A DNA stretch of 64,000 bases from Xestospongia bergquistia. Taxonomy: Eukaryota > Porifera > Demospongiae > Haplosclerida > Petrosiidae. A program made the position numbers and the translations under genes. The notes below the pieces were generated by a model. The model saw nothing but the letters and a program-made list of their open reading frames with translations. It was not told where the DNA came from and searched no databases. Each line of letters starts with the position of its first letter. Position 1 is the stretch's first letter. Positions 13,834 through 55,433 of this stretch are shown here, piece by piece. Location: NCBI GenBank assembly GCA_963965975.1, contig OZ014412.1, positions 3,102,501-3,166,500 of the forward strand, read 5' to 3'.

Positions 13834-16800
13834 ATGTCTTTGTCCAAGATTGAACTCCTGGTTCCTATCTGTTTGATTATAGTGATGTTATGTTCCAACA
13901 CTTTATTAGGTAAGTGAACGTTCATTAAATTACTAAGTTCTATAAAGAATGCAGTCTAGTTTCTAGACATACCTACTATTTTTAGCCTACTAATAGTTCC
14001 TTCTAGCTTCTAATATCTCATCATGTTAATCTCCCAAAATTCAAAAATAAATACAAAAATTAATTCTAAAAGCCATAAGATAGTTTTTGCAAAAAATTTA
14101 TACCAGTGAAGAATTTCCACTATGGTATGTACCACTTCGTAGTAACAATCAAAAAAGAAGGTTATACTTAAAAGGTCATCCTATAATTAATTGTTATAGA
14201 AGATACTAATGTCACAATGAAACACTGACTAGAGCTACAAATATTGCATGATTTGCAGCAGTGTCAGTTGGATACTAATAGCTATAGAATGCTAGAAATA
14301 TAGAAGAACAAACTAGTGAGAAGCTTCAAGCATCGTCAGTCACACCCATCATTGTAGGTTAGGGTTAATGATTGCTATATTTGTCAGCAGTTAAAGTATA
14401 TGGTTTAATTTCATTTGTTGCTCTCAAAAGTTACATAAACAATATATTAAAATAATGAAAACAAATAAGCCTGTATATATAATTCACACATGGTCCTGTA
14501 AATAACACTGAATACCATCTGGTTATAGGGCCACCTGGCATGCATGGTGTGCAAAGTAGATGTGATTAGGTATTATAGCCACATCAGCAATAACTAGCTT
14601 GTGGTTAGGATATCAGTGCCACATAAGCAATAATTGACTTGTGTGGGGGCAGTGGGTGCTTTTGGGACCTCACAAGTATAGAATTAAAAATAGAATTGGA
14701 AGGAAGTATGTAAATCAATAATGTTGATAGCCTTTCCATATTTATTGACTTCAGATAACTATTGTAAACTGGGCACCAGAAATTTACAATTTTAGAAGCA
14801 CTTTTGCCAGGGGGTTATGCCAACAATAATATTGCTAAACTTAATTTTACAGCTGTTCATTTCATATTTACTCCATCTCCTAACATTGAAGTCTTTCAAC
14901 CAGCACATTACCAATGTTCAGTAGACGATACTGGTGTGACTGTTATTTGGTTTGTTAACGGAACAGGTTCTACTAATAATGAGATTATCCAACTTGGTAT
15001 TGTTACAAATGGAGCAGGATCACCTAACTCCAGTCTTATCATACCTGGATATCCTCAATATAACAATACAGTAGTGAAATGTAATGCTTTTGGATCTGTA
15101 GATGGTAATAATTACTTTAACTTCAGTGAATCTACTCTAAGAATACAAGGTAACACACTCTCTGATATATGTCATTATATCTCCTCTCATTAGGTGAACT
15201 AACTGCTGTCAACAATTTGATATGTCATGTACAAAGTCAGTATATAAACTGTTCCTGGTCTCCTCCTTTCTATCTGGTATCCATACCTGGTTATATCATC
15301 AATGTTACTTATGGAGGAGAACTAGTTACACAGAACACTACATCTTCTACAACATGGCAGTATTGTCCCAGTCAATTTGGTACATATACAATCAGTATAG
15401 CTGGTAATAACTCAGCTGGAGAAGGAGAGATAAATACTACATCAGTTGTAGTACCAGAAAGTAAATGATGTAGACATTTTGATTTATCAACTACTTGATA
15501 TTAATAGATACAATTACTAACTATAATGTGACTCCTAAAAGATTATTAAATGACACATATCTGATCAACTATATTGTGGAGGTATGATAGCTCTCTTATA
15601 TAAATATCATATACTTTTACATATATTCTATTTAGACTGTATATTCACTACAGCCATCATTAGTATTTATCAATATAACTAATAGTACTGGAACTTCATT
15701 TATTTTTAATGGAAGTGTAGATGATTTTGTTGGAAATAAGTTAATTGGAAATATAAGTATTGACATGACTGGTAGACAAAAATGGAGTAGTGTTTTGACA
15801 TTAAGATACAGCTGTAGATCTCTTAATTTACCAGTTAAACTATTTTGTAAGTTTGTTTAACCATATTAATTGTATTAATATTTTTATTAGCTACATTTGA
15901 TGTACAAAATGGCAGTTTAACTGATGACCCTGGACAAGTTTGTTTTACATGTCATTTTCTTGAGGGTAGTCAATCACAAGGATGTTATATTGAATATAAC
16001 TCACTTATAACAGACTAGTACAGTGGTAATATTACTATAGTGAGAACATCAATAGATACCAGTACTGCTAGTAAATGTGTGACAGGAATATATACCAGTA
16101 ACTATAATGTGACATTTTATGATATGGATTATAACAATGTACCATATACTACTGAGTATGCTGTAAAACTAACTAATCAATCAGTGACTGGACTATCTCC
16201 TCCTCCAACATCCACATTAAGAGTATCATCACCATCACCTACAATGAACACAAACTCTGGTGATTGTAAGTTCTAATAAATATTATCAGAATTGTTTATA
16301 TTGCTAACTACTATAGTTGATGATGACCATGGAGTTCGACTGGTAACAATTATTATTATTGGTATGTTTAATTTGTCTATTAATTTTGATCTCTCTTATA
16401 ATTGTTTAGCAATCATCAGTGGATTTGTTTTTGGTATGTTGATACTTGCAATTGTTATGAAGATAGTTCTGAACAGAACCAATACAAGACGACGTAAGTT
16501 TATTAATAATTATGAATTGTTTTAATAGCACACATATAGGCAATTTGATGACAATGCCTCTAGAGAGTGAGTTACTGCCAAAACCAGGACAAAAATCTGA
16601 AGAAATAGAAAATGAAGTAAAATGATTTAATTATAATAATTAATTACTTACTTAATTATTAATTAGTGTAACTATGTAAAGGATGTGATGTTGTTCTATG
16701 TAACTATAGAAAGGACAATAAAATTAAACCATGTGTGATGATTACCAAGGAGTATGTAGATTTTTAAAGGAAGAAGGATCTTACAACTTACATTCAAATA

Positions 16801-17610
16801 TGCTTCTTTATAAACAATCAAAAATGATTGAGTTGTTAATGTTGTGTTCCATTCATTGATTGAACACCTTTTTGTACCAGCAGTTAAAATATGCAACAGT
16901 AGAATAAAACAATAGAAGTGGATATACCTGTATTTGTATAGGTAAATGTGGTCCAAAACAAATATTGAACTGCTTGGTACACAAGGTATATCAGGCAGTT
17001 TTATAGTAAAATTCAGTTATTTTTCATTATCATAGCCAATAAATATAAGAAATGGTATGGCTGATTGTTAAGTAAAGGCTACACAATATTCCTATACCTC
17101 TACTTTTGTCAGTTCCCAACTCTACTATTTTACCTTCAAATAATCTTTATTATGATAAACTTATTATAATTTCAGATCTAATGTACTCAAACAATATCAT
17201 GATATATATTATACATATATCTTGTATAAAGTTTATAATATTTTTTACCTTTACATTAGACATCACTTAATGGTCCTATCCCAGCATCTGATCTCAATTC
17301 TACAGAATCACATAGTACAGAACATGATACATCAATAATGGGACAAAATAGTTTAGAAACTCAATATCAGTTATACTGTGAAGACGATAGTGGACAAGCT
17401 ACTAATGGTAATATGACAACTCATATATCATCACAGTACTCTACTTTGTCTAATAAAACAAGTGATAAATTAACTATTAAGAAGACAATAGGTCAGTAAA
17501 CATTACTATATAGTAGACATTATATTATATTTATTATATTAGAGTTAACTCATAAAGATCTAGTTACTTATGTTGATGAAACTGAACTTGCTGACCAATT
17601 AGACAACTAA
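13834..17610 (+). CDS. P1: P-type Ig-FN3 receptor, interrupted by one in-frame stop in D4
   Basis: Eleven exons: 13834-13909, 14853-15149, 15194-15460, 15508-15581, 15636-15846, 15891-16265, 16317-16361, 16410-16493, 16540-16616, 17260-17491, 17543-17610. All junctions are GT..AG and keep frame. Order: signal peptide (MSLSKIELLVPICLIIVMLC), Ig domain (HYQC...VKC), FN3 (NCSW, SVAGNNSAGEGE-type end), D3, D4 (VCFTCHF, GCYIEY), Ser/Thr/Pro stalk, membrane segment (about IIIIGAIISGFVFGMLILAI), tail. TAC becomes TAG at 16016-16018 (codon 351), so the product would stop inside D4 and be secreted unless read through or a sequencing error. The tail holds SSQYSTL (ITIM pattern) and starts a death domain (ELTHKDLVTYV), then jumps in frame to DETELADQLDN: the core of the domain is deleted. 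The first exon is joined by a long intron and is the least certain part. Role, by architecture: surface recognition receptor. Confidence 0.7.
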
Positions 17611-18125
17611 TCTATTAAATATTTTATTATAATTAATTAAATTGTGTTTATATCTGTATTCTCAAGGATGTGTTCTTTTAATTAAACTTATAACATTTGT
17701 CATTCTGATTTTAATATGAACACATCTATTGTTATATTATCATCATCATATTATTTATTGTTATATTATCTATCATATTATCATTAGTGTAAATCAATCA
17801 TTTTACTTATTAAATAAATGGTTGTCTTATAATTGTTACAATTTTGGGGGTCATGGTGATATCATATTTTTTGACACATACACACATCATCAAATATACT
17901 TGTCATTGATTTTGAGAAGTCTTCTTGAATATTATTAATGATATGATTAAGCACAATTATAATAATTATAAATTGTTTAGGTTTGCAATATTATGTGTGA
18001 GTGTATATGTTTATGCAAGAGACTACTTGATGTGTAAAGCATTACAATAACTACAGTGTCACAACATGGTATATAAACACACTAATGTAGAGCAGTAACT
18101 CTGCACACACTATTATTAACTAATG

Positions 18126-20413
18126 TCATGTCACACCATATGCAGCACATGTGTTCATCTCTAGTTCAGTAGTAGGTAGTGTATTAGTGATCATATCAAC
18201 ATTCTCATATTGAGGTAGAACTTGATGAGGGACAATATCTATTAATGGATTAATAGGAGATGGTACAGTACCTACAATGGATAATACCATTTACAAACTA
18301 TTCCCACTGTTAGTATTACCTTGTCTCAGTGACTTAGTTCTTCTTATCCAACATATCACTATATGTACTAGTACAATACATACCAGTATTAGAACTGACA
18401 CACCCGCTAGACTACCTATATATTACAATAATACAGTATACATGGAGACATTTATTAGTCAATTAATATATTTAATACTATTAATGATGCAATACTTACA
18501 CTCATCTGTTAATTGTAATGTACATTATATTGAATACTGACTCATACCTCCCAATCCAGCCGTCATCAATCCTAATCCACCTGTCTCACAATTATTTATT
18601 TTTGTATCTGTACATATTACACATTTAACAATAAAAACATGACAAAAAATATTGGTTACTTACTTAGAATTTCACTTACACTTGTAGTAACTAATATTGT
18701 AGCTATAGAGACAGAATATGATACAGAACTAGACACTAGACAAAGAGATGTGTAAGTTAGTTCTAATCCAATAATAATGATATTAGTAGATATATTACTA
18801 TATATATTATATGTAATAGTCCTTTACTTACTAGTTGTACAGTCACATCTCTCTGTAGTATGTAATACTGTAACCATGGAAACAGAACATACTGTACAAG
18901 TCCTTTCAAGAAATGGGTAAGTTGGTTCCAATCCAGTAATAGTGATATTAGTAGATGATATTGCCCAGTCATCTGATAATCTATTCTCCTCTTCAATATC
19001 ATATACATACATATTATATATACCACTAGGTAGATCATATGTACATCCAATTACTGTACTACTACATACTGGAGAACACATCAATGATATGTTACTACTG
19101 TAGGCAGAGGAGGTTAATGAAATAAGACAACCTTTAACAATAGCTCCTCTTATAAAATGACAGCTGTAACATATTCTACCAATATTACTTAGCTCATTAT
19201 ATAGGGTAGCTTCAGTAATATCATATGTACCTAATGAATGAGAAAATATTTATAAGTCATTTATAATGTACTTACTTAGTACAATTGATTCTGTTACATC
19301 AATAACAGCTCCACTTGGTAATGATAAAGTCATTCTTGTCTTCCATATTTTATTCTCAGTTATATTTACAATATAGATGGTAACAACAATAACTCCTTCA
19401 TCAGTTAGAATTATTGGATTATTTAGAAATATAGAAGAATTATCTTCATTATATATAACAACATTTAGTTGAGCTGACTCCATTGTATGTGGACATTGTT
19501 GAAGTTCCTAATATCACAAACATGAGGTATCTAGAGATATCATAATGTAACTTACCAAATCATATATTGTTATATTTAGTATCCAACTATTAACTGATCT
19601 GATAAAGGTAGTTGTTAAATTACTTATATTTACTAATATCAAAGTAATAAATTATACATTAGTAACCATAGTGATAATACCTCCTGGTACTTCTAATGAT
19701 GCAGTGTTTATCTCTCCAAGTCCAGCTGAATTATTACCAGCTACACTAATTGTATATGTACATATACCAAATTGGTTTAGGAAATAAAACCATGTTATAG
19801 AAGATGTTGTGTTCTGTGTAACTAGTTCTCCTCCATAAGTAACATTGATGATATAACCAGGTATAGATACCAAAGAGAAGGGAGGAGACCAGGAACAGTT
19901 TATATACTGACTTTGTACATGACATATCAAGTTCTTGACAGCAGCTAGTTCACCTAATGAGAAGAGATATAATGACATATATTAGTGATTGTATTACCTT
20001 GTATTCTCAGAGTAGATTCATGAAATTTGAAATAACCGCTATTGTTCACAGATCCAAAAGCATTACATCTCACTATTGTATTGTTATATTGAGGATATCC
20101 AGGTATGGTAAGACTGGAGTTAGGTGATCCTGCTCCATTTGTAATAATACCAAGTTCAACAATGTCACTATGACCTGAACCTGTTCCGTTAACAAGCCAA
20201 GTAATACCCACACCAGTATGATCCACTGAACATTGGTAATGTGCTAGTTGAAAGACTCCAATGTTAGGAGATGGAGTAAATATGAACTGAACAGCTATAT
20301 AATAAAACTAAATAAAATAGTACATTAGTTATTAATATAATCATACCTGTACATTTTAATATAATAGATACTAACATTATCAGTAGTAGCCATGTTCTCT
20401 TCATAAGATCCAT
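18126..20413 (-). CDS. M1: M-type Ig-FN3 receptor with short tyrosine tail
   Basis: Ten exons in transcript order: 20413-20347, 20294-19998, 19953-19681, 19632-19556, 19507-19276, 19230-18832, 18762-18664, 18607-18548, 18415-18320, 18271-18126; 581 residues, no interruption. Domains: signal peptide (MDLMKRTWLLLIMLVSIIL), Ig (about 23-122, HYQC...VRC), FN3 (122-213, NCSWSPPFSL and NNSAG), D3 (213-316), D4 (316-449, CYSCHF...GCLISL, LPSGIYNMYVYDIE), stalk exons 7-8 (449-502), one membrane segment (SLAGVSVLILVCIVLVHIVI) followed by WIRRTKSLRQ, and a 48-residue tail with LPQYENVDM and CAAYGV. Intron phases 1-1-1-0-1-1-1-1-1. Many N-x-S/T sites support a surface protein. YENV has the Y-x-N form bound by Grb2-type SH2 domains in other animals; use here is inference. 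It faces P1 tail to tail with about 0.5 kb between stop codons. Confidence 0.85.
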
Positions 20414-21033: not shown

Positions 21034-21212
21034 CATGTGGTCTATGTACTATATTAAGTTGATGTTAATGTATAATTTCTATGTGATACTATATGGTGTA
21101 TGTACTATGTACTATATTAAGTTGAGGTTAATGTATTATTTGTATGTAATACTATATGGTGTATGTACTATATTAAGTTGATGTTAATGTATTATTTCTA
21201 TGCATAATGTAT
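21034..21212. repeat. Tandem repeat, about 2.5 units of 63-77 bp
   Basis: Successive units of the form TGTACTATATTAAGTTGATG ... TTAATGTATTATTTCTATG, differing by short internal duplications. Non-coding. Confidence 0.75.
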
Positions 21213-22987: not shown

Positions 22988-23089
22988 GTACATGTACTTC
23001 TAATGTACTAATAGAACTGCATAGTTTAAAATATAATCTTCATACTTCACAAAATATAATATATTTACATATTTGTATGACATTTGAAG

Positions 23090-24095
23090 TTTACTAACAT
23101 TATTTATTAATAGTTTCATCTATGATCAAGTCTTTATCAGTTTATAATTCAGTACCAGAGGAAAGGATATTAATCTCTCATTAAAATGTTAATTTATAGA
23201 TGCATAATTCAATGTGGTGGTTGGATTTTGAACAATATGTGTCAGACAATTGACATTTATTGCCAACATGACCAATATGCTAGAATATTTTACAGTGACT
23301 CTTGCATATGTTACACAACTACTTGTCATGTGACCCGTTACCATATATTGGTTAATTGTTGTTATTAATGAAAGCTCTTAATTGATTTTGATCATACATC
23401 CATCTACTAATATCTGAGCCACATATATCCAAAGCCACTGACACTTGTTGGTGATACTATCAGAGAATAATAGATGTATGTTATAATTGAGTCTGAAAAA
23501 CTCTTCCTACTCCCTATTTGGAGAGGTTTTCCCTGATGACTGTTAGTTGTTATACTGATGGTATTCTACTCACCATCACACCATTGGAATTCTATGACTA
23601 CCTAAGCACCTTATCTTGTTTTTTTGTTCAATGTCTATTATTGACCTAGAGTCATGTAATGTTGTTCTATATGACATCCAAGGAAATAAAGAGTAAATAT
23701 GATATTAGTTGCTGACATGGAGAGTGACCCTTGTGATGTTATCAACTCTCATCACCTGCTCTTTACCTTAATAACAGGATGGTATCCAAAAACAGAATGT
23801 TGGAGGATCTAAATGAAGGTCAATCTACATTATGATTATGTTGTACACACTGACATATGCCCTTACAGAAGACAGACTATAATTGGATAGTAGCATTTCT
23901 TAATACAGGTGGCTCATACACTATAACACTAATATCTGAAGCATAGCTATATGGCTATAGTGTGATATAATATATCTGTACTGTTATGTATTATAACTAT
24001 CAATTGTATTTAATTATATATAACATTAATTGTTATCAATGTTATGACTATTAATTTGATTATTGACAGAAAGATTATTCTAAAATTTAAAGGCT
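23090..24095 (+). repeat. Dispersed repeat R1, copy D
   Basis: Long forward R1 copy. It starts with the segment holding CAAGTCTTTATCAGTTTATA and ends in TTGATTATTGACAGAAAGAT. No exon found. Confidence 0.6.
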
Positions 24096-24839
24096 CTAAT
24101 GTACTCATCATTATTATTACAATTAAAATACATATTTCAAAAATACTTTAGTCTCTGCTCCATTTAGTGTAGCTAGTGAACTATTTGTGTTTTAGTTAGT
24201 ACTTGTTGTTGATGATATGATGTAAGGATGATATCAAGATGCTGTTTGCTTGTTTGTATTCTATTTAATGGATTGATATCACTGAGGGCAGAATATATCA
24301 GTAGTAAAATTGCTAAACAATTCAGCTGTATAGTATGTGTTACTATTATTGCTATACATTGCTTCCTCTATTCAAGTTGACTTTGTTAAGACATGTAAGT
24401 GGTCATATGCTTACTCACTAAAATGTTATGACAGTTATCATACACATCTTAAATGTCTGCATTCTTAAATAAAATATCTAGTAAGTATTAACCTAGCTAC
24501 ATAAGATAATAAAGTTTGTGTATAATATTATGATGGTCAATACACATATATTATTTGTGTAGGAGTAAAATGTGTGTTTACATGTTCACTATAGGTCCAT
24601 AGTCTGTCATCTTTAAAGGTCACAGAAAGTTTATATAAACATTAAATATCAATCAATTGCTAGTTAGAGTATGGGAGTACTACATCTTTATTCTCTAAAT
24701 GTGTCGTATTTTAAAGAGATAATGTCATGTTATTTGTGACTTCCTTAAATATACAAGCAAAGTGTTAAATTATCATATAATGTAATAGCAGTACTATATC
24801 CTTCTGTCTATAAATATCTGGGCTATCAAAATTTAGCTA

Positions 24840-25769: not shown

Positions 25770-26740
25770 GTTTTCTAGATGTTCTCCAGGAGGATCAAAG
25801 ACCATTCATTCCTTATCTTCCAAGGTATATCAACATCAAAAATGTTTATTTGTGGACAGACGATTCAATGTGGTGGTTGTCAGACAATTAATTAACCAAC
25901 AATATAACCAATATGCTAGAATACCTTACAGTGACTCCAATAGTGCACAACTACTTGTTATATGACCTCTCACTATATAAATTGTACTTTCTTACTGTAT
26001 TGGTTGTTGCTATTGATGAAAGCTCTTAATTAATTTTGATCATACATCCATCTACTAATTTCTAAGCCATATATATCCAGGACCACTGTTGGTGATACTA
26101 TCAAAGAGCAATAGGTTTATGTTATCATTGAGTCTGAAAAACTCTTCCTACTCTCTTATTCGGACAGGTTTCCTGTGTAGACTGTCAGTTGTTGTCAAAC
26201 CCCATATTGATGATAATTTATTCCCTTATGCAATGTTCTCACCATTGGAATTCTATGACTACCTAAGCACCTTATCTTGTTTTAGTTCAATGTCTATTAT
26301 TGACCTAGTGTCATGTAACGTTGTTCTGTATGACATTCAAGGAAATAAAGAGTAAATATAATATTAGTTGCTGACATGGAGATTGACCCTTGCGATGTTA
26401 TCAACTCTCATTCCCACTATTTTCCTTAATAACAGAATGTTGGAGGACCTAAATGAAGGTCACCAACATTTTGATTATGTTGTATACACTGACATATGTC
26501 CTTACAGAAGGCAGACTATAATTGGATAGTAGCATTTCTTAATATAAGTATGTCACACAGGTGGCTCATACACTATAACACTATTATCTGAAGTATTGCT
26601 ATATGGCTATAATATATCTATACTGTTACATACTATAACTATCAATTGTATTTAATTCTATTTAATTGTTATCAATGTTATGACTATTAATTTCATTAGT
26701 GATAGAAAGATTATTATAAAATTTAAAGGTTCTGATATAT
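25770..26740 (+). repeat. Dispersed repeat R1, copy E
   Basis: Forward R1 copy. Its 3' part (about 26660-26735) is repeated again at 26815-26900 after a short AT run. Open frames at 25747-25965 and 26089-26355 lie inside this repeat, have no counterpart in sister copies and are not called as genes. Confidence 0.6.
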
Positions 26741-27345
26741 TCAATATTGTTATTATAATTCAAATATATTTAATATATATATTTAATAAAATATATATAT
26801 ATATATTTAACTATCAATTGTATTTAATTCTACATAACATAAAACTGTTATCAATGTTATGACTATTAATTTCATTAGTGACAGAAAGATACTTATAAAT
26901 TTAAGGGCTCTGATGTACTCATCATTGTTATTACAATTCAAATACATATTTCAAACTATTTATGTTCTAGTTAGTCCTTGTTGTTGATGATATGATGTAA
27001 AGATGTTATCAAGATGCTACATAATACTTTGTAATACATGTACATGTATTTGGTATACACATGTACATACATGGTTGTGATTAATATTGTCACCTGTGTT
27101 ATTATGTACTCACTAAAGTATGTAAATGTATTAATTGAAGACCTAGAGACATGTAATATTACAATGTATTTATTTGGTATTCACATGTACATAAATGGCA
27201 TAATAAAGCATTAACCAGCTGACAATTAATCACGACAGGTGTGGGTTAATTGTACCTTAATTTACATTCCTCATGACTTTTGTAGAGTTGTTCATGAAGC
27301 TATTCACTTCAGCTTCTTTTTAATGACTGATATCATTCAGGCCAG

Positions 27346-31940: not shown

Positions 31941-34258
31941 TTATGTATAACAACCAATTAATAATTTTATCACACCATATACAGCACATGTGTTCATTTC
32001 TAGTTCAGTAGTAGGTAGTGTATTAGTGATCATATCAACATTCTCATATTGAGGTAGAACTTGATGAGGGATAGTATCTGTTAGTGGATTAACAGGAGAT
32101 GGTATAGTACCCACAATGGATAATACCATTTACAATCTATTCCCACTGTTAGTATTATCTTGTCTCAGTGACTTAGTTCTTTTTATCCAACATATCACTA
32201 TATGTACTAGTACAATACATACCAGTATTAGAACTGACACACCCACTAGACTACCTGTATATATTACAATAATACAGCATGCAAGGAGACATTTAGCAGT
32301 CAATTAACATCATTAATATTATTAATGAGGTAATATTTATGCTCATCTGTTAGTTTGTAATAAACATTATATTGAATACTGACTTATACCTCCCAACCCA
32401 CCTGTCATTAATCCCCATCCACCTGTCTCACAGTTACTTATTTTTGTATCTGTAGAACATTACACATGTTAACAATAAAAACATAACAGAAAATATTGGC
32501 TACTTACCTAATATTTCACTTACAGTTGTAGTAACTAATATTGTAGTTATTGAGAAAGAATATGATACAGAACTAGTCACTAGACAAAGAGTTGTGTAAG
32601 TTGATTCTAATCCAGTAATAATGATATTAGTAGATATATTACTATATATCTTATATGTACTAGTCCTTCACTTACTAGTCCTACAGTCACATGTTTCTGT
32701 AGAATATAATACTGTAACCATGGAAACAGAACATACTGGACAAATCCTTTCAAAAAATGGGTAAGATGATTTCAATCCAGTAATAGTGATATTAGTAGAT
32801 GATATTGCCCAGTCATCTGATAATTTATCCTCCTCTTCAATATCATATACATACATATTATATATACCACTAGGTAGATCATATGTACATCCAATTATTG
32901 TACTACTACATACTGGAGAACACATCAATGATATGTTACTACTGTAGGTAGAGGAGGTTAATGAAATAAGACAACCTTTAACAATAGCACCTCTTATAAA
33001 ATGACAGCTGTAACATATTCTACCAATATTACTTAGCTCATTATATAGGCTAGCTTCAGTAATATCATATGTACCTAATGAATGAGAAAATATTTGTAAG
33101 TCATTTATAATATACTTACTTAGTACAGTTGATTCTGTTACATCAATAACAACTCCATTTGGTAATGATAAAGTCATTCTTGTTTTCCATATTTTATTCT
33201 CAGTTATATTTATAATATAGATGGTAACAACAATAACTCCTTCATCAGTTAGAATTATTGGATTATTTAGAAATATAGAAGAATTATCTTCATTGTATAT
33301 AACAAGATTTAGTTGAGCTGACTCCACTGTATGTGGACATTGTTGAAGTTCCTAATATCACAAACATGAGGTATCTAGAGATATCATAATGTAACTTACC
33401 AAATCATATATTGTTATATTTAGTATCCAACTATTAACTGATCTGATAAAGGTAATCGTTAAATTACTTATATTAACTAAAATTAAAGTACCAAATTATA
33501 CATTAGTAACCATAGTGATAATACCTCCTGGTACATGTAGTGATGTAGTAGTTATCTCTCCTTCACCAGCTGAGTTAATACCAGCTACACTAGTTGTATA
33601 TGTACATATACCAAATTGGTTTAGGAAATAAAACCATGTTGTAGAAGATGTAGTATTCTGTGTAACTAGTTCTCCTCCATAAGTAACATTGATGATATAA
33701 CCAGGTATGGATACCAGAGAGAAGGGAGGAGACCAGGAACAGTTTATATACTGACTTTGTACATTACATACCAAGTTGTTGACAGTAGCTAGTTCACATA
33801 ATGAGAAGACATATAATGACATGTATCAGAGAGTGTGTTACCTTGTATTTTCAGATTAGATTCATTAAAGTTAAAAGTAATCACTTCCATCCACATATCC
33901 AAAAGCATTACATCTCACTATTGTATTGTTATATTGAGGATATCCAAGTATGGTAAGACTGGAGTTAGGTGACCCTGCTCCATTTGTAATAATACCAAGT
34001 TTAACAATGTCACTATGACCTGAACCTGTTCCATTAACAAGCCAAGTAATACTCACACCATTATGATCTACTGAACATTGGTAATGTGCTAGTTGATAGA
34101 CTCCAATGTTAGGAGATGGAGTAAATATGAATTTAATAGCTATATAATAAAACTAAATAAAATAGTACATTAGTTATTAATATAATCATACCTGTACATT
34201 TTAATATAATAGATACTAACAATATCAGTAGTAGCCATGCTGTCTTCAGAAGATCCAT
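31941..34258 (-). pseudogene. M2: M-type receptor with frameshift and lost splice sites
   Basis: Exons in transcript order: 34258-34192, 34139-33842, 33797-33525, 33476-33400, 33351-33120, 33074-32676, 32606-32508, 32449-32390, 32254-32159, then the former last exon to 31941. Compared with M1 and M3: one extra base in an A-run at 33873-33876 shifts the Ig frame just before its end. The FN3 acceptor AG is AT at 33798-33799 (a cryptic in-frame CTAG lies nine bases inside). The donor after the membrane exon is AT instead of GT (32157-32158), and the matching acceptor is GG instead of AG. Reading past the dead donor gives ten extra residues and a stop, removing the QYENV tail. D3, D4 and the membrane segment remain open, so decay is recent and centred on the Ig end and the tail. 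Confidence 0.8.
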
Positions 34259-40518: not shown

Positions 40519-40754
40519 GTATAAGTTTAATATTATTAACAACAATGAACATATTTCAACATCATACATATATAGACAGACATTAAAACCACAGAGGCTA
40601 GAACAAAATATTGAAGTCAATAAAACGAACAATGCTGATGTTAATAACAAACATTACTGTAATATACAGTGATATACATACATAATGAGAGTGTATTGTT
40701 GGAGTGTACTGGATGAGTACTATAAAGGAATTTCATAAATTTATTAGAGTAACT

Positions 40755-41720
40755 GAATCGAGTCTTTACTATAAAAGTATTATGTATTCCACTTCTTGTT
40801 TATATGTGTACTATTAACTGTATTTTAAACATTTATAACTTCCCTCTATAGCTGTTCATACTATTAAACATTAACTACATCTTATATTGTTATTTATTTT
40901 AACTCTTTTATTTTATAACAATACAATAAAAGTACTTCAAATAACAACATACAATTTTGTTATAATCATTTAAGTAGCTATAATATCCTTTTTTTGGTAA
41001 TTACTCAATTAAATAATTTGTTTCATTTGTAATTAAGTTGAATTACAACATTTCAATCTAATTTATTTATAATAATATGTTAGGTCAGTATGAAACAACA
41101 CGTCTGTAAACTTTACTTAACTAGATTAAATATTACATCATTGTTACCTTATTATTTAATATATTGACTTTTTTGATCCAGCTGTAAGTAACGTTAGAAA
41201 CTGAATTTTAATATTATGTTCCTATTTTATTTTTATGATGTTCTTTCTTTTATCATTATAATTTTCTTTTATTATCAATGATTTTAGACTATTAAAAATA
41301 TTAGGATTATTTAATTCTTTTAACATTTTGACTTTAACTATTAAAAATATTAGGATTATTTAACTATTAAAAATATTAGGATTATTTAATTCTTTTAACA
41401 TTTTGACTTAATGTTGTTCTTTGTTTATTTTCTTTTTACCTTATGCTATTTATTAAATTTCTATTGTTGAATGAAGAACATACCAGACTTAATCATAATA
41501 TACATGATAGTATTCAACTTTATGATCATACTCAACATGCTCACTCTCATACTTCAAGTCTTTACTATAAATGTATTATGTATTCCACTCCTGTTTATAT
41601 TTGTACTATTAACAGTACTTTAAAAATAGCTTCCCTCTATAGCTGTTCTTACTATTAAACATTAACTACATCTAATATTGTTATTTATTGTAACTTATTG
41701 TATTTTACAACGATACAATT
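40755..41720 (+). pseudogene. P3 downstream: disused tail exon and duplicated 3' blocks
   Basis: Contains two copies of the P-type 3' block (40755-40940, 41560-41720). Between them is a truncated tail exon (about 41450-41550) reading LLLNEEHTRLNHNIHDSIQL and YDHTQHAHSHTSS, after which it runs into the 3' block instead of the SQYSTL part. A short direct repeat with ACTATTAAAAATATTAGGAT occurs at 41285-41410. P3 as read stops before these, so they look disused. Confidence 0.6.
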
Positions 41721-42180
41721 AAAGTACCTCCAATATATTATAATACATTATTATTATATTATTAGTACATTATAATCATATTTCATATAAGGAGATATAG
41801 TATACTCTTTTAGTAATAACTAAATTAAATTTTTTATTTCATTTGTAATTATGTTGAACTACAACAATTCAATCTACTTTTATTTATACTATAAATTATG
41901 TCAGTATGAAACAACAGGTCAGTAAACTTTATTCAACCTACCCAGAACAATTGTAGAGTGTGTAGGTGAATGAGTGTTATTGTTTTATTATAATTATATG
42001 TTTTTCTGATTATAGAAAGGTATAGTATCACTAATGTAAAGTATTAGGATCACTTATGTCCCTCTTGTTAAAGAATAATAAAATTGGAAAAGAAATAGAG
42101 CAAATTGAATAACTAAATACTCTAATATATGCTTATAATAATGATTTTAATAACAGTATTTAAAGACACACTGTTGCTGG

Positions 42181-44475
42181 TCAATATTTTATCACACCAT
42201 ATGCTGCACACGTCTTCATCTCTAGTTCAGTAGTAGGTAGTGTATTAGTGATCATATCAACATTCTCATATTGAGGTATATCTTGATGAAGGACAGTATC
42301 TGTTAGTGGATTAACAGAAAATGGTATAGTACCTATAATGGATAATACCATTTACAAACTATTTCCACTGTTAGTATTACCTTGTCTCAGTGACTTAGTT
42401 CTTCTTATCCAACATATCACTATATGTACTAGTACAGTACATACCAGTATTAGAACTGACACACCCACTAGACTACCTATATATTACAATAATACAGTAT
42501 ACATGGAGACATTTATTAGTCAATTAATATCATTAATATTATTAATGAGGTAATATTTATACTCATCTGTTAATTATATAAATTATATTGAATACTGACT
42601 CATACCTCCCAATCCAGCTGTCATCAATCCTAATCCACCTGTCTCACAGTTATTTATTTTTGCATCTGTAGAATATTACACATGTTAACAATAAAAACAT
42701 GACAGAAAATATTGGCTACTTACCTAAAGTTTCACTTACACTTGTAGTAACTAATATTGTAGCTATAGAGACAGAATATGATACAGAACTAGTCACTTGA
42801 CAAAGAGATGTGTAAATTAGTTCTAATCCAATAATAATAATATTAGTAGATATATTACTATATATATATTATATGTAATAGTCCTTTACTTACTATTTCT
42901 ACAGTCACATGTTTCTGTAGAATATAATACTGTAACCATGGAAACAGAACATACTGGACAAGTCCTTTCAAGAAATGGGTAAGTTGGTTCCAATCCAGTA
43001 ATAGTTATGTTAGTAGATGATATTGCCCAGTCATCTGATAATCTATTCTCCTCTTCAATATCATATACATACATATTATATATACCACTAGGTAGATCAT
43101 ATGTACATCCAATTATTGTACTAGTACATACTGGAGAACACATCAATGATATGTTAGTACTGTAGGTAGAAGACGTTAATGAAATAAGACAACCTTTAAC
43201 AATAGCTCCTCTTATAAAATGACAGCTGTAACATATTCTACCAATATTACTTAGCTCATTAGATAGGGTAGCTTCAGTAATATCATATGTACCTAATGAA
43301 TAAGAGAATAGTTCTAAGCCATTTATAATGTACTTACTTAGTACAATTGATTCTGTTACATCAATAATAGCTCCACTTGGTAATGATAAACTCATTCTTG
43401 TCTTCCATATTTTATTCTCAGTTATATTTACAATATAGATGGTAACAACAATAACTTCTTCATCAGTTACAATTATTGGATTATTTAGAAATAGAGAAGA
43501 AATATCTTCATTGTATATAACAAGATTTAGTTGAGCTGACTCCACTGTATGTGGACATTGTTGAAGTTCCTAATATCACAAACATGAGGTATCTAGAGAT
43601 ATCATAATGTAACTTACCAAATCATATATTGTTATATTTAGTATCCAACTAGTAACTGATCTGATAAAGGTAGTTGTTAAATTACTTATATTAACTAAAA
43701 TTAAAGTAATAAATTATACATTAGTAACCATAGTGATAATACCTCCTGGTACTATAACTGATGTAGTAGTTATCTCTCCTTCTCCAGCTGAGTTATTACC
43801 AGCTACACTAATTGTATATGCACATATACCAAATTGGTTTAGGAAATATAGCCATGTTGTAGAAGATGTAGTGTTCTGTGTAACTAGTTCTTCTCCATAA
43901 GTAACATTGATGATATAACCAGGTATGGATACCAGAGAGAAGGGAGGAGACCAGGAACAGTTTATATACTGACTTTGTACATAACATGTCAAGTTGTTGA
44001 CAGCAGCTACTTCACCTAATGAGAGGAGATATAATGACATATATCAGAGAGTGTGTTACCTTGTATTCTCAGAGTAGATTCACTGAAGTTAAAGTAATCA
44101 TTACCATCTACAAATCCTGAAGCAATACATCTTACTATTGTATTGTTATATTGAGGATATCCAGGTATGATAAGAATGGATTTAGGTGATCCCGCTCCAT
44201 TTGTAACAATGCCAAGTTTAGTAATATCATTGTTAGTAGAACCTGTTCCATTAACAGTCCAAGTAACAGTCACACCTGTATGATCCACTGAACATTGGTA
44301 ATGTGCTAGTTGATAGACTCCAATGTTAGGAGATGGAGTAAATGTGAACTGAACAGCTATATAATAAAACTAAATAAAATAGTACATTAGTTATTAATAT
44401 AATCATACCTCTACATTTTAATATAATAGATATTAACAATATCAGTAGTAGCCATGTTGTCTTCACTAGATCCAT
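42181..44475 (-). CDS. M3: M-type Ig-FN3 receptor with short tyrosine tail
   Basis: Ten exons: 44475-44409, 44356-44060, 44015-43743, 43694-43618, 43569-43338, 43292-42894, 42822-42724, 42665-42606, 42476-42381, 42332-42181; 583 residues, no interruption. Same layout and phases as M1. Signal peptide MDLVKTTWLLLILLISIIL; Ig with WTVNGTGSTNND; FN3 with the variant WLYFLNQFGICAYTIS; D3 with ENKIWKTRM; D4 with CYSCHF, GCLISL and LPSGIYNMYVYDIE; membrane segment SLVGVSVLILVCTVLVHIVI then WIRRTKSLRQ; tail with IPQYENVDM and CAAYGVIKY. The tail ends two residues later than in M1 because the stop differs. Its FN3 protein sequence is almost the same as that of the plus-strand fragment P5 over about 80 residues, which suggests recent sequence exchange. 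Probable surface recognition receptor. Confidence 0.88.
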
Positions 44476-48528: not shown

Positions 48529-50532
48529 ATGGTTGAACTAGCAGTCAACTTCTTCATTATTCTATGTGTCGATGCCTTAGGTATGGGATAATAATTTACT
48601 ATTGCTCATCTACTACTACTAACGATGATCAATTAATCCATTAATAATAGAATCCTATAGTCTATAAAATCATGTACACATTTTATTTTTGCAGCTGGCA
48701 CAAAATGCTATACTTAAAGTTTAAATTAATGATATATAGTTTAGTATTGCTTTCTCATTAACACATAACAAGTGGTCCAAAACAGTATGGGCATGTTATA
48801 TGTACCAGTAATTAAACTTTATTATTTACTATGTAGCTGTTCAGTTCATATTTATTCCATCTCCTAACATTGGAGTCTATCAAACAGCACATTACCAATG
48901 TTCAGTGGATGATACTGGAGTGACTATCACTTGGCTTGTTAATGGAACAGGTTCTGGTCATAATGACATTGTCAAACTTGGTATTGTTACAAATGGAGCA
49001 GGATCATCTAACTCTAGTCTTACCATACCTGGATATCCTCAATATAACAATACTGTAGTGAGATGTAATGCTTTTGGATTTGTGAATGGCAGTGGTTATG
49101 TCAATTTTAGTGAATCTACTCTGATAATACAAGGTAACACACTCTCTGATATATGTCATTATATCTCTTCTAATTAGGTCAACTAGTTGCTGTCAACAAC
49201 TTGATATGTCATGTACAAAGTCAGTATATAAACTGTTCTTGGTCTCCTCCCTTCTCTCTGATATCTATACCTGGTTATATCATCAATGTTACTTATGGAG
49301 GAGAACTAGTTATACAAAACACTACATCTTCTACAACATGGCAGTACTATCCCAGTCAATTTGGTACATATACAATTAGTGTAGCTGGTAATAACTCAGC
49401 TGGAGAAGGAAAGATAAATACTACATCAGTAACATTACCTACAGGTATTATTATTAGCATATATTTACTATTATTATGGTATCCATAGCAACCATTTCAG
49501 AATATTTTGTGTCAGCTGAAAGGGTAAATGGAAATTGGACAGCAAATTGTGTGATAAAGGTAATACATTGTACTGTTTAATACATGTGTATTATATTAGT
49601 GTATTTAGAATGTAACATTCTCAGACAACAAACCATTACATGTACACACACGCTTAACTCCTATTAATAATGATACATCTCCTGTTGATGGTCAAGGTAG
49701 TGGAGTATTTGAAGGAGATACATTTATAGGAATTGTAAATATGGGAGTCTTACCAGATAAAAAGAAATGGTTGATATCATTTAGTTTAGTATATAACAGT
49801 GGATTATATATCAATGTATCACAACCTACTGTATTTAGTAAGTTAATATATTTTACTGTATTATCATATGTATATGAAACTTGTCTACTAGCTACATTTG
49901 ATGTACAAAATGGTAGTTTAGAAGTCACAAACTCTACTATTGGAGAGGTTTGTTTTACTTGTCACTTTGTTAATGGAAGTCAATCACAAGGATGTTATAT
50001 TGAATTTAGATATCTCAAAATATATTTCAATGGAAATGTTACAATTAACAAAACATCAGTAGATACCAGTACTGCTAGTAAATGTGTGACAGGAATATAT
50101 ACCAGTAACTATAATGTGACATTTTATGATATGGATTATAACAATGTACCATATACTACTGAGTATGCTGTAAAACTAACTAATCAATTAGTGACTGGAC
50201 TATCTCCTATTCCTACTCTAACTACTGCATCAAGTGTTTCTTTTGATACATCAGTTGATGTTACATCGTCATCTCCACCACCCACACTTTGTAAGGAGTG
50301 TAATAATAGTAAGTTATTATATTATTAACATTATATTCATAATACTACTACTATTACAGATGGAGGTTTTAATGATGGTCTATTGGTGATTATTATTGGT
50401 ATGTTTGTCTATTATTATATGTAGTAATATTATTGTGAGTTCTTGTTTATAGTTGTCATAGTAACTGTTGTTATTATTATTATTGGTGCTGTTGTTGTTT
50501 GTTGTTGTTGTTGTTGTTGTTGTTTTTATTAA
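48529..50532 (+). CDS. P4: P-type Ig-FN3 receptor ending after a polycysteine membrane segment
   Basis: Eight exons: 48529-48580, 48837-49133, 49178-49444, 49489-49559, 49609-49837, 49892-50308, 50360-50398, 50453-50532; 483 residues, no interruption, phases as in P3. Signal peptide MVELAVNFFIILCVDA; Ig (HYQC, ITWLVNGTGSGHND, VRC); FN3 (NCSWSPPFSL) whose end and following intron match P5; D3 unlike the other P genes in sequence (ISEYFVSAERVNGNWTANC) but with the same two-exon form; D4 (VCFTCHF, GCYIEF, CVTGIY, YDMDY); Ser/Thr/Pro stalk with CKECNN; membrane segment VVIVTVVIIIIGAVVV followed by eight cysteines, FY and stop. The polycysteine run comes from a TGT microsatellite. No cytoplasmic tail is encoded, although a tail exon with SQYSTL survives downstream (50960-51155). 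The cysteines could be palmitoylated (inference). Confidence 0.8.
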
Positions 50533-50674
50533 GGCAGACAAGAAAATTAATTTAAGTAATTACTCAATTAAATTTTTATTCCATTTGTAATTAAGTTGAA
50601 TTACAACATTAAAATCTACCTTTATTCTATGTCAGTATGAAATAACATGTCAGCAAACCAGATGAAATATTATA

Positions 50675-50680
<6 letters not shown>

Positions 50681-50730
<50 letters not shown>

Positions 50731-50731
50731 T
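50681..50731. repeat. (ATT)n microsatellite
   Basis: About 17 perfect ATT units in the 3' region of P4, between the stop codon and the surviving tail exon. Confidence 0.9.
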
Positions 50732-50939
50732 AGTATATTGACTTTTTATCCAGGTTTAACCTTAGAAACTAAGATAACAATAGTTGCAAATTTTAATATT
50801 ATGTTTCTATTTTATTTTGATGATGTTCTTCTTTTATCTTTACTATTTTCCTTTATAAATGATCTTAGATTATTAAAATATTAGAATTATTCAATTGCTT
50901 TAACTTTTGGTTTAATAATATTTTTTGTTTTTTTTTTAC

Positions 50940-51159
50940 CTCATGCAATTTATTATATTTCTATTGTTGAATGAAAAATATACCAGACTTAATCATAATG
51001 TACATGTTAGTACCCAACTTTATGATCATACTCAACATCCTCATTCTCATACTTCAACACCTATTCCACCTATGTATTCTACACTACCTACTAATGGTAA
51101 TATGACAAGTCATATATCATCACCTGACAGTCAGTACTCTACTTTGTCTAATAAAACAA
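50940..51159 (+). pseudogene. P4 downstream tail exon with tyrosine motifs
   Basis: Open exon reading LLLNEKYTRLNHNVHVSTQL, then YDHTQHPHSHTSTPIPPMYS, then TLPTNGNMTSHISSPDSQYS and TLSNKTSE. It carries three tyrosine sites: TQLYDHT, PPMYSTL and SQYSTL; the last fits S-x-Y-x-x-L. In P1, P5 and the inverted copy the same exon continues into a donor and a death-domain exon. Here it runs without a junction into an FN3 exon (see P5). P4 as read stops before it, so it is probably disused unless an unseen splice form reaches it. Confidence 0.65.
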
Positions 51160-51173
51160 GTGAAACAGTCTTC

Positions 51174-52960
51174 ATATTTAGTCAATAACTTGATATGTCA
51201 TGTACAAATTCAGTATATAAACTGTTCCTGGTCTCCTCCCTTCTCTCTGGTATCCATACCTGGTTATATCATCAATGTTACTTATGGAGAAGAACTAGTT
51301 ACACAGAACACTACATCTTCTACAACATGGCTATATTTCCTAAACCAATTTGGTATATGTGCATATACAATTAGTGTAGCTGGTAATAACTCAGCTGGAG
51401 AAGGAGAGATAAATACTACATCAGTAACATTACCTACAGGTATTATTATTAGCATATATTTACTATTATTATGGTATCCATAGCAACCATTTTAGAATCT
51501 CCACCACCCACACTTTGTAAGGAGTGTAATAATAGTAAGTTATTACATTATTGACATAATATTCATATTACTACTACTACTATTACAGAAAGAGGATTTA
51601 ATGGTGGTCCACTGGTGATAACTATTGGTATGTTTGTTTATATTATATGTAGTAATGTTATTGTGAGTTCTTGTTTAAAGTTGTCATAGTAACTGTTGTT
51701 ATTATTATTATTATTATTATTATGGCTGTAGTATTATACAAGATAAATAAAAGTAAGTTTAATATTATTAACAATAATGAATGTGTTCCATCATCACATA
51801 CATATAGAAACAAAATGTATGTTAAAACTAAAGATGATAGAAAAATGTTGAAGTCAATAAAACAAGTAATGCTGAGGTTAATAACAAATGTTATTATAAT
51901 ACAGATATAATAATATATAGTGATAGTATAGAATGAGAGTGTGCTGGAGGAGTATACTGACTTTATTACATTATGAACTGTAATTGTAATAACAAGTTAT
52001 TACATCATATTCATCATCACTATATAGTCATTGTAACTGGAACAAGTCTTTACTACTATATATTGTAAATGTATTGTGTATACCACATCCAATTTATGTA
52101 TGTACTATTAACTGTACTTTATATAACTTCCCTCTATAGCTGTTCTTATCATTAAATACTAACTACATCTTTTATTGTTATTTATTGTAACTTGTGTATT
52201 TTAGAGTAACACAACCAGAGTACTTCAAACAACAACATAATAATAATAAGTTGTTATGTTATTATGTAACTAAGATAACAATAATTACAAATTTTAATAT
52301 GTTCCTATTTTATTTTTACAATGTTCTTTTATCATTATGATTTTCCTTCGTTAATGATCTTGGACTATTAAAAATATCAGGATTATGTAATTTTTCAACT
52401 TTTTGGCTGAATAAAGTTCTTTGTTTTTCTTTTTAACTCATACTATTCTATTTATCATATTTTTATTGTTGAATGAAGAACATATCAGACTTAATCATAA
52501 TGTACATGCTAATACCAAACTTTATGATTATACTCAATATCCTCATTCTCATACTTCAACACCTATTCCACCTATGTATTCTAGACTACCTACTAATGGT
52601 GACATGACAAGTTATATATCATCACCTGACAGTCAGTACTTTACTTTGTCTAATAAAACAAGTGATAAATTAACTATTAAGAAGATAACAGGTCAGTAAA
52701 CTTTACTATATAGTAGATATTATATTTTATTTATTATATTAATGTTAACTCATAATGATCTAGTTACTTATGTTGCTCCACATGTAACTACAAAATTACA
52801 AGAGATAGGTACTGCCCTAGCACTAACTCAATCTGAACTAGATAACATTGAAGAGAACCATCAACGTATCACTAGTATGTCCTAACTCTGAGACTAAGAG
52901 ATGTTCATATACTGGGACATATTGTTAATGAGGATAACAAGATCACTAACCAATTAATTC
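51174..52960 (+). pseudogene. P5: chimeric partial P-type gene with broken death domain
   Basis: Starts inside an FN3 exon (to about 51440) that is fused to the tail exon of P4 and lacks its normal acceptor. It keeps the NCSWSPPFSL and NNSAG motifs but has the M-type variant WLYFLNQFGICAYTIS. The following intron matches P4. The next exon joins the start of D3 to the end of D4 in frame (ATILESPPPTLCKECNN), so D3 and D4 are deleted. Then come exon 7 (about 51590-51628), a membrane exon (51681-51754, VVIVTVVIIIIIIIMAVVLY), a short exon, a tail exon (to about 52691) with PPMYSRL, SQYFTL and SNKTSDKLTIKK, and a death-domain exon (about 52764-52960). The death-domain exon starts VTYVAPHVTTKLQEIGTALA but loses frame near 52875. 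Its normal acceptor is altered, though CTAG seven codons later would keep frame. With no Ig domain or start it is a remnant. Confidence 0.7.
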
Positions 52961-53197
52961 AGTAGTGATTGTACTAATGTAAAAGTAAAATTAATGTGTG
53001 AGTGCTAATTGTTTATGTAATCATGTTTTTCTACTTATATAAAGGTTCATTTATTTTTATAGTATCACTTTACGTGCTCTTATTGCCATAACACTCAAAT
53101 GAACAAAATTTTATAACTAAAGACTTTATATCGAAACACACAATATTACAAGTCACTTTGTAAAAAATGTCCAATACCAGTATGGAGGTATTATGAA

Positions 53198-55433
53198 TTA
53201 ATATTTTATCACACCATATGCTGCACACATCTTCATCTCTAGTTCAGTAGTAGGTAGTGTATTAGTGATCATATCAACATTCTCATATTGAGATATAACT
53301 TGATGAGGTACAGTATCTGTTAGTGGATTAACAGAAGATGGTATAGTACCTACAATGGATAATAACATTTACAAACTATTCCCACTGTTAGTATTACCTT
53401 GTCTCAGTGACTTAGTTCTTCTTATCCAACATATCACTATATGTATTATTACAGTACATATCAGTATTAAAACTGACACACCCATTACACTACCTATAGG
53501 TATAACCAATGAGTATGTTACTGAAATATTTAATATCTTGTTAATAAGGTACTTTCAATTAATAGTAATATACTTCATTCAGTTCATGCATAGACATTTT
53601 TGTTCAGTGAAGTAGGAATAAGATTGAGGAGGAAATGGGCAATCAGATTGTACTCAGAACTATTTGTATGTACCTTCTTGTATGATTATTGGGCAAAGGT
53701 GGGTTGCTATCCTGCCTCCCCCTCTATTCTTACTGCACTGTTATTTATTAATTACCTTCCTGTGCAGCTGTCATACAATTTGTGTTGCTATTCAAATATT
53801 TATCTGGATAACAATTGTGATAATAAGTATTACATGTTATTGAAATTAAAATTTACTTACCCAAACAATTGTTTATACTAGCTAAGTCAGTAGGGGTAAC
53901 AACAGAACATGATACAGGACAAGTTGTTTTAAGAGATGTGTAAGTTAGTTCTAATCCAGTAATAGTGATATTAGTAGATGATATTGCCCATTCATCTGAT
54001 AATCTACCCTCCTCTTCAATATCATATACATACATATTATATATACCACTAGGTAGATCATATGTACATCCAATTACTGTACTACTACATACTGGATAAC
54101 ACATCAATGATATGTTACTACTGTAGGTAGAGGAGGTTAATGAAATAAGACAACCTTTAACAATAGCTCCTCTTATAAAATGACAGCTGTAACATGTTCT
54201 ACCCATATTACTTAGGTCATTATATAGGGTAGCTTCACTAATATCATATGTACCTAATCAATGAGAAAATATTTGTAAGTCATTTATAATCTACTTACTT
54301 AGTACAATTGATTCTGTTACATCAATAATAGCTCCACTTGCTAATGATAAACTCATTCTTGTCTTCCATATTTTATTCTCAGTTATATTTACAATATAGA
54401 TGGTAACAATAATAACTCCTTCATCAGTTAGAATTATTGGATTATTTAGAAATATAGAAGAATTATCTTCATTGTATATAACAATATTTAGTTGAGCTGA
54501 CTCCACTGTATGTGGACATTGTTGAAGTTCCTAATATCACAAACATGAGGTATCTAAAGATATCACAATGTAACTTACCAAATCATATATTGTTATATTT
54601 AGTATCCAACTATTAACTGATCTGATAAAGGTAGTTGTTAAATTACTTATATTAACTACAATGAAAGTACCAAATTATACATTAGTAACCATAGTGATAA
54701 TACCTGGTGGTACATGTAGTGATGTAGTAGTTATCTCTCCTTCTCCAGCTGAGTTATTACCAGCTACACTAATTGTATATGTACCAAATTGACTAGAACA
54801 GTACTGCCATGTTGTAGACGATGTAGTATTCTGTGTGACTAGTTCTCCTCCATAAGTAACATTGATGATATAACCAGGTATGGATACCAGAGAGAAGGGA
54901 GGAGACCAGGAACAGTTTATATACTGACTTTCTACATGACATATCAAGTTGTTAACAGAAACTAGTTCACCTAATGAGAGGAGATATAATGACATGTATC
55001 AGAGAGTGTGTTACCTTGTATTCTCAGAGTGGATTCACTGAAGTTAAAATAAGTATTACCATCTACAAATTCCAAGGCAATACATCTTACTACTGTATTG
55101 TTATATTGAGGATATCCAGGTATTGTAAGACTGGAGTTAGGTGATCCTGCTCCATTTGTAACAATATCAAGTTTGATAATATTATTGTTAGTAGAACCTG
55201 TTCCATTAACAAGCCAAGTAATAGTCACACCTGTATGATCCACTGAACATTGGTAATGTGCTAGTTGATAGACTCCAATATTAGAAGATGGAGTAAATAT
55301 AAACTGAACAGCTATATGATAAAACTAAATAAAATAATACATTAGTTATTAATATAATCATACCTGTACATTTTAATATAATAGATACTAACAATATCAG
55401 TAGTAGTAGCCATGTTGTCTTCACTAGATCCAT
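53198..55433 (-). CDS. M4: M-type receptor lacking stalk exons 7-8
   Basis: Eight exons: 55433-55364, 55311-55015, 54970-54704, 54655-54579, 54530-54299, 54253-53861, 53493-53398, 53349-53198; 527 residues, no interruption. Signal peptide MDLVKTTWLLLLILLVSIIL, Ig (WLVNGTGSTNNN, VRC), FN3 with the P-like variant WQYCSSQFGTYTIS, D3, D4 (CYSCHF, GCLISL, LPSGIYNMYVYDIE), membrane segment GVSVLILICTVIIHIVI then WIRRTKSLRQ, tail with ISQYENVDM and CAAYGVIKY. Here SQYENV fits the ITIM pattern S-x-Y-x-x-V. Exons 7 and 8 of M1-M3 are missing: exon 6 has a new 3' end (TPTDLASINNCL) with its own GTAAGT donor, in phase 1, so the frame to the membrane exon is kept. The stalk is therefore about 53 residues shorter than in M3. 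Confidence 0.85.

Follow-up and report, generated by a model that had tools for sequence, protein, structure and literature searches.

We have identified a large cluster of putative membrane receptor genes in the demosponge Xestospongia bergquistia, in which two receptor types, designated P and M, seem to draw on a common pool of Ig-like exons. The stretch of DNA analyzed here (64,000 nucleotides; assembly GCA_963965975.1, contig OZ014412.1, positions 3,102,501 to 3,166,500), referred to as the window, is part of a cluster of ~ 1.6 Mb that occupies about 2.72-4.37 Mb of the same contig (C2). The cluster is real and large, and among clustered, variable Ig receptors it forms a new variant. It is hypothesized, with a probability that we place at roughly 0.6, to be a fast-turnover cluster of recognition receptors in which one Ig repertoire is spread over several signalling bodies, a function that we infer. 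Each receptor would consist of a signal peptide, an Ig-like domain, an FN3-like domain, a P or M membrane-proximal body, a transmembrane (TM) helix and one of several cytoplasmic tails, and would be located at the cell surface. Gene conversion or recombination is proposed to pass the Ig exon from one gene type to the other, with the result that one binding repertoire would be displayed on several signalling bodies.

The extent of the cluster was determined by searching the sponge's own genome (146.46 Mb in 21 contigs) with single exons. The family resides almost wholly on C2, which holds 143 of 150 Ig places, 143 of 150 places of a tail exon with a QYEN motif, and all 56 places of a death-domain-like exon. 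Matches to the membrane-proximal domain that were kept on C2 number 101 for the M type (of 151 reported) and 99 for the P type (of 150); those left out lie on C9 or C14, are cross-matches to the other type, or are distant relatives. Merging these yields at least 96 M and at least 94 P copies, of which at least 54 M and at least 85 P have 280 or more bases of the domain. These counts are minimum values, as scoring was limited in most searches to 150 candidates (of 155 for Ig, 301 for M, 364 for P and 205 for the QYEN tail); the death-domain-like exon and its tail exon were scored completely (71 of 71 and 74 of 74, respectively). Relatives of the M exons are also present in ENA contigs of up to 1.68 Mb, which probably derive from further assemblies of this sponge or one close to it. 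Stray or distant members of the family were observed outside the cluster at 0.43-1.42 Mb of C2, at 4.03 and 5.43 Mb of C9, at 3.44 Mb of C14 and at 6.45 Mb of C1.

Comparison of the window with itself in both orientations bore out the preliminary description of four successive couples, each with a P gene on the plus strand followed tail-to-tail by an M gene on the minus strand (P1/M1 to P4/M4, at approximately 13834-20413, 29087-34258, 38798-44475 and 48839-55433). Its two receptor types with common outer domains likewise stood. The Ig and FN3 exons of the P and M genes in the window have 86-91% nucleotide identity, in inverted orientation, and the membrane-proximal domains of the two types differ (27-33% protein identity). 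Gene models were assembled by eye with GT-AG introns. The M model comprises a signal peptide, Ig, FN3, a short exon, an exon termed mX, the M membrane-proximal exon, two stalk exons, TM, a 48-nt intron and a QYENV tail. P genes in the window have a pX exon distinct from mX. The signal exon of P1 is its own, and that of QYEN-tailed P genes elsewhere in the cluster is of the M type.

The relationship between Ig exons and receptor class was analyzed in the copies linked to an open body domain (32 of 38 for Ig and 32 of 37 for FN3). The nearest Ig relative belonged to the same class in 18 of 32 copies (null 0.49, p = 0.28), and the nearest FN3 relative did so in 29 of 32, a value that none of 5000 shuffles reached. 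Ig exons in this sample are therefore blind to receptor class and FN3 exons are bound to it. For this comparison and for the distance and selection analyses, copies with a stop or with less than 92% coverage were left out. Among 12 M genes, the mean Ig distance was 0.161 and the body distance 0.046, with a correlation of 0.08; among 18 P genes, the corresponding values were 0.195, 0.113 and 0.25. Synonymous divergence was 0.22 for Ig, 0.18 for FN3 and 0.195 for the P body, and 0.04-0.07 for the M body, TM and QYEN tail. These sequence comparisons are most simply read as movement of Ig exons from one receptor class to the other, with M bodies kept alike, and exchange would then be the cause of the pattern.

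Several points weigh against a shared and functional Ig repertoire of this kind. The sample includes loci that were picked by a match to the M1 Ig exon or to the death-domain-like query and may be biased. Because the synonymous divergence of the P body is near that of Ig and the Ig-body correlation is higher in P genes, decoupling is clear for M only. Class-blind Ig exons could also come from recent homogenization of M bodies instead of transfer of Ig exons. Positive selection on Ig is suggestive and not significant, as the most variable Ig stretch has a ratio of nonsynonymous to synonymous substitution (dN/dS) of 1.69 with an interval that includes 1 (0.80-3.44). Many copies are broken. Lastly, a profile search of the PDB with the death-domain-like exon returned two unrelated chains and no death domain, and comparison of its fold model with PDB structures gave no significant match.

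Domain assignments were made from profile searches and fold models. The Ig exon has the conserved Cys and Trp pattern and its profile matches the Ig region of DSCAM (E = 0.0028), which weakly suggests an Ig domain; in Pfam, Ig_3 was under the cut-off for P4 (E = 0.013) and M1 had no Ig match. The M1 FN3 exon matched Pfam fn3 under the cut-off (E = 0.0021), and the cut-off was passed (2.4e-7) only by a separate exon at 58552-58836. A low-confidence fold model of the M body is a beta-sandwich with a predicted local distance difference test score (pLDDT) of 67.7. FN3 folds make up most of the top PDB matches to this model (best E 0.0051); we take the M body as FN3-like only. The other four fold models had pLDDT values of 33-41, and sequence searches of the PDB with the M and P bodies matched no chain. 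Pfam matches in the bodies were weak and unrelated and were discarded (Head_binding at 0.0021 in mX, DUF4983 at 0.098 in P). Death was the only Pfam family matched by the death-domain-like exon, in five of seven copies, all under the cut-off (best E 0.017; 0.075 in the Pfam scan of ten exon translations). The fold model of this exon is all-helical at low confidence, with the ankyrin-1 death domain only at E = 7.1, and its identity as a death domain is weakly supported.

The cytoplasmic tails fall into classes that cut across the two receptor types. Among the 85 P copies with at least 280 bases, QYEN exons are present in 35 and the death-domain-like exon in 21; a further 4 have just the tail exon that precedes the latter, and 25 have neither. 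As 150 of 205 candidates were scored in the QYEN search, the last figure is an upper bound. A QYEN exon lies downstream of 44 of the 54 M copies of this length. Receptors would thus carry a QYEN-type tail, a death-domain-like tail with YxxL motifs, or others, including short tails. The YEN motif is retained in 26 of 30 tail exons read; YENV is presumably akin to a Grb2 SH2 site, and the SQYSTL of the death-domain-type tail fits what we take to be the consensus of an immunoreceptor tyrosine-based inhibitory motif (ITIM). At 3694-3697 kb of C2, one P copy is followed on the same strand by five QYEN tail exon matches within 2.2 kb, which suggests variable numbers of tyrosine motifs. Among the few TM helices read, a basic residue is found near the inner end in P1 and in the P gene at 3.278 Mb, and none is found inside those of P2 and the P genes at 3.453 and 3.331 Mb.

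Orientation was scored for 100 adjacent P/M neighbours across the cluster, of which 25 are convergent, 22 divergent and 53 tandem. The preliminary description held that the genes always occur as linked convergent couples, and the cluster map overturned this: convergence is at the level of shuffled labels (26.1 expected, p = 0.67; 24 of 79 versus 21.2 for copies of at least 280 bases, p = 0.20), and was rejected as a cluster-wide rule. Convergence is enriched from 2.72 to 3.58 Mb (22 of 61 versus 16.7, p = 0.033; 20 of 46 versus 14.0 in the 280-base set, p = 0.007). From 3.58 to 3.83 Mb, none of 18 neighbours converges, every copy is on the plus strand, and the genes form head-to-tail units, among which P-P-M and P-P-P-M are frequent. 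Within the cluster, the convergent couple is a local form of organization, and a partly degenerate one. That one gene set occurs in two arrangements supports a fast-turnover cluster of receptors, in which the couples would have come from inverted duplication in one sector and the P-P-M units from direct duplication in another; any order of these duplications would be a reconstruction.

The claim that the duplicated unit is a two-gene, tail-to-tail module held for couples 1/2 and 3/4, which share intergenic DNA and are supported by it as module duplicates. When the intergenic stretches of 13 couples were compared, at least four groups emerged, with weaker links between some of them: couples 1 and 2; couples 3 and 4, in part with the couple at 3.054 Mb; those at 3.453 and 3.331 Mb; and those at 2.806, 2.843 and 2.876 Mb. 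As couples share intergenic DNA in groups, the P/M module has been duplicated in several lineages.

Such module duplication, together with the local enrichment of convergence, the Ig and FN3 domains common to both members and the ITIM-like SQYSTL, would fit paired receptors proper, in which each convergent couple is a functional unit whose members bind the same ligand and signal in opposite directions; the preliminary description had proposed paired receptors with opposing or complementary output. We consider this quite improbable. Within a couple, the P and M Ig exons lie a mean of 0.165 apart, as against 0.179 for the distance to those of other M genes (8 couples, difference without a significance test), and Ig exons of a couple that are hardly closer than this to each other disfavour ligand sharing specific to the couple. 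Sharing of the binding domain is seen at the level of the family only, and couple-specific sharing was discarded as a candidate.

Nor are tails constantly opposed. In 20 convergent couples the members are no more than 6 kb apart. Among their P genes, 4 have a death-domain-like tail, 4 a tail of QYEN type as in M, 3 a partial tail and at most 9 neither; the absence of a recognized tail was confirmed directly on the DNA for 6 of the 9. Three of the four death-domain-like P tails in close couples were read: that of P4 is broken, that at 3.054 Mb has a stop in the tail exon, and that at 3.075 Mb matches 60 of 111 residues. The couples at 3.453 and 3.331 Mb have related short tails, read by eye, that end in SPFPEIKE and EIEEGSL. 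Of the contrast between a tyrosine/death-domain tail on P and a QYENV tail on M that had been described for the window, the M side was found in the M genes, but the P side was not found intact. P1 and P2 run into short, tyrosine-free tails (by eye) with relics of longer tails downstream, P3 keeps a tail fragment, and the death-domain-like exon of P4 is cut off half way. No P gene of the window has an intact death-domain-like exon, and the contrast is accordingly intact in none of the four couples. The tandem arrangement of more than half of all P/M neighbours and the premature stop of the P gene in two of the four window couples also argue against couples as functional units.

The breakage of copies raises the alternative that the locus is mostly non-functional debris, left by inverted and direct duplication, with the alternation of strands merely reflecting the origin of the copies. 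In the window, the membrane-proximal exon of P1 is interrupted by an in-frame TAG (16016-16018), the FN3 exon of P2 by a TGA (29488-29490) and the Ig exon of M2 by a frameshift at about 33875; these, the cut-off P4 tail and gene fragments at 1-6.6 kb speak for this alternative. A recognized full tail is also missing more often in P genes of close convergent couples than elsewhere (12 of 20 versus 17 of 65, Fisher p = 0.0075), and dN/dS is not distinguishable from 1 for mX (1.27), the QYEN tail (1.10) and TM (0.88). However, M1, M3 and M4 are open in all matched exons, and no stop occurs inside the match in 80 of the 101 M-type and 88 of the 99 P-type places kept. Furthermore, dN/dS lies below 1, intervals included, for Ig (0.67, 0.48-0.90), FN3 and the P body, and the YEN motif has persisted. 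Debris as the main content of the locus is therefore judged unlikely.

An assembly artefact, in which alternate haplotypes or misjoins produced the repeated and alternating order, is judged highly improbable. Neither the window nor the 200 kb fetched contains an N, and with none in the window the order of the couples crosses no scaffold gap. Where the four couples can be aligned they diverge by ~ 5-25%, their flanks are not alike, and seven further couples that were chosen as convergent from the map are also convergent in the DNA. In favour of an artefact, blocks at ~ 4.06-4.10 and 4.13-4.17 Mb of C2 repeat at an offset of ~ 65 kb, with several exons that have identical match scores. Over 4.06-4.19 Mb, this ~ 65-kb block occurs twice, with nearly the same exon matches and an almost unchanging offset, and there is a partial third occurrence, which may reflect a recent duplication or a retained haplotype. 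Contig order is also described as unknown in a repetitive region of chromosome 2 in the accessible part of the X. muta genome report (PMC12398682), for which identity with the assembly or region here is not shown.

The first couple begins with the P1 signal-peptide exon at 13834..13910 on the plus strand, followed by a GT donor. The body of P1 (14855..16625, plus strand) contains Ig at 14855-15148, FN3 at 15193-15456, pX at 15645-15812, the membrane-proximal domain at 15893-16201, TM at 16400-16495 and the short tail exon, read by eye, at about 16540-16625. Its downstream relic (17269..17607, plus strand) consists of the SQYSTL-containing tail exon and a death-domain-like exon that lacks most of its length. 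M1 (18126..20413, minus strand) has its outer exons at 20413-20345 (signal), 20292-19999 (Ig), 19954-19685 (FN3) and 19633-19556 (short exon), and its inner exons at 19507-19277 (mX), 19228-18917 (membrane-proximal domain), 18416-18321 (TM) and 18272-18132 (QYENV tail).

P2 (29087..31088, plus strand), for which no signal exon was found, has Ig at 29087-29380, FN3 at 29425-29697, pX at 30120-30284 and the membrane-proximal domain at 30379-30696, with TM and short tail, read by eye, ending at about 31088; M2 (31971..34258, minus strand) has the exon set of M1. P3 (38798..41589, plus strand) has Ig at 38798-39091, FN3 at 39136-39411, pX at 39590-39757, the membrane-proximal domain at 39854-40162, TM at about 40390-40515 and the tail fragment at 41470-41589; no death-domain-like exon was matched in this gene. 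Its partner M3 (42193..44475, minus strand) runs from the signal exon at 44475-44407 to the QYENV tail at 42193-42333. P4 (48839..52882, plus strand) contains Ig at 48839-49132, FN3 at 49177-49440, an exon termed pX-b at 49609-49839 and the membrane-proximal domain at 49894-50208. The tail exon of P4 is in duplicate (50970-51176 and 52472-52684) with a stray FN3 exon in between (51181-51435), and its death-domain-like exon at 52745-52882 has a stop half way. M4 (53210..55433, minus strand) has an SQYENV tail at 53210-53350 and a diverged stalk that was not resolved exon by exon.

Upstream of the couples, an M-type fragment with the membrane-proximal domain and following sequence (1092..1838, plus strand; no Ig or FN3 exon matched ahead of it) converges with part of a P-type tail exon and four pieces of death-domain-like exons (2168..6634, minus strand); of these four, two have stops and one is split by a frame change. 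Open reading frames of at least 60 amino acids are listed at 1-13.5 and 20.6-28.9 kb, and one of them holds a death-domain-like fragment of this region. At the other end, more receptor-like exons at 57625-61377 on the minus strand represent a third, more diverged type, with Ig (Ig_2, E = 1.1e-4, under the cut-off), the FN3 exon that passed the cut-off, and a distant M-like body (30% identity). The same or nearly the same 46-base tandem repeat occurs at 36465-37060 and 62162-62306, and another repeat family occurs in both orientations at 1-902, 8988-9993, 11050-11735, 23429-24194 and 26047-26771. Scans of the window for tRNAs and Rfam families gave no match. Elsewhere in the genome, contig C21 (18,997 bases) bears cox1, with TGA read as Trp, and a match to ATP synthase subunit c; a mitochondrial atp9 is in keeping with demosponges. 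Over 447 residues this cox1 is 100% identical to a sequence in a UniRef cluster labelled Demospongiae (mnemonic XESMU, taken here as Xestospongia muta), which points to a demosponge; sponge cox1 evolves slowly and several species fall in that UniRef cluster, so that a barrel sponge is no more than a guess from this match. Broken matches to cox1 and subunit c also lie on both strands at 3.155-3.200 Mb of C6, where they may represent mitochondrial sequence transferred to the nuclear genome.

Vertebrate paired receptors (KIR, LILR and SIRP) are clustered Ig receptors with shared ectodomains and different long or short tails. The sponge genes resemble them in clustering, common ectodomains and differing tails. 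Unlike in those families, the sponge tail classes form no clean activating/inhibitory pair, orientation varies, and no helix read has a basic residue other than near its inner end. The nearest described system is the Hydractinia allorecognition complex (Alr), which has at least 41 loci, more than half of them in clusters, according to the available portions of two reports (PMC11067881, PMC11999971). As described there, Alr likewise belongs to an early animal lineage and groups many Ig-superfamily genes for single-pass proteins, numerous pseudogenes among them, in a large cluster, and clustered, single-pass membrane genes of the Ig superfamily are predicted here as well. Unlike Alr, the sponge receptors would have an FN3-like domain and a second membrane-proximal body after the Ig domain, two body types with one Ig pool, and QYEN and death-domain-like tails, and the sponge locus is known from the sequence of one assembly. 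The FN3-like domain is set apart by description only from the V-set and I-set domains given for Alr in the accessible text of PMC11999971.

Sponges are described, in the parts of PMC6208332 and PMC4772301 available, as having Ig-TIR receptors, expansions of SRCR and NLR genes, and single genes such as one with Ig plus CARD. The genes of the cluster are similarly Ig-bearing or expanded and of immune type, but their architecture differs, and Pfam scans of ten exon translations gave no match to TIR, SRCR or NACHT. Sponge aggregation factors are secreted proteoglycan cores, unlike the predicted membrane receptors with signalling tails reported here. Their genes are polymorphic and are discussed in allorecognition, according to an entry in the reference list of a sponge grafting study; the words "immunoglobulin" and "receptor" are absent from the main text of that study (PMC5450542). 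By domain counts, X. testudinaria has fewer expanded immune domains than two other sponges, as stated in the accessible part of PMC4772301. Since Pfam scores here are mostly sub-threshold, a receptor family of this kind would escape such counts. The preliminary description knew of no such sponge locus, and a literature search partly aimed at sponge receptors, judged from titles and abstract openings and with most subscription papers outside its coverage, found no account of this locus and no clustered, variable membrane-receptor family in sponges.

Sponges distinguish self from non-self. It is possible, although we hold it only tentatively, that the cluster is a sponge allorecognition or germline-diversified immune locus, with well over 100 receptor copies and one pool of Ig exons copied between bodies with different tails, and that its products may signal in the recognition of self and non-self or of microbes. 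If so, each specificity would be tried with several outputs, and the cluster would supply the membrane receptors that have been missing from the picture of sponge self/non-self recognition. That the Ig exon is decoupled from receptor class suggests a simple route by which one binding repertoire could be spread over several outputs, and with a 1.6-Mb cluster mapped and its exons defined, the question of sponge recognition becomes testable.

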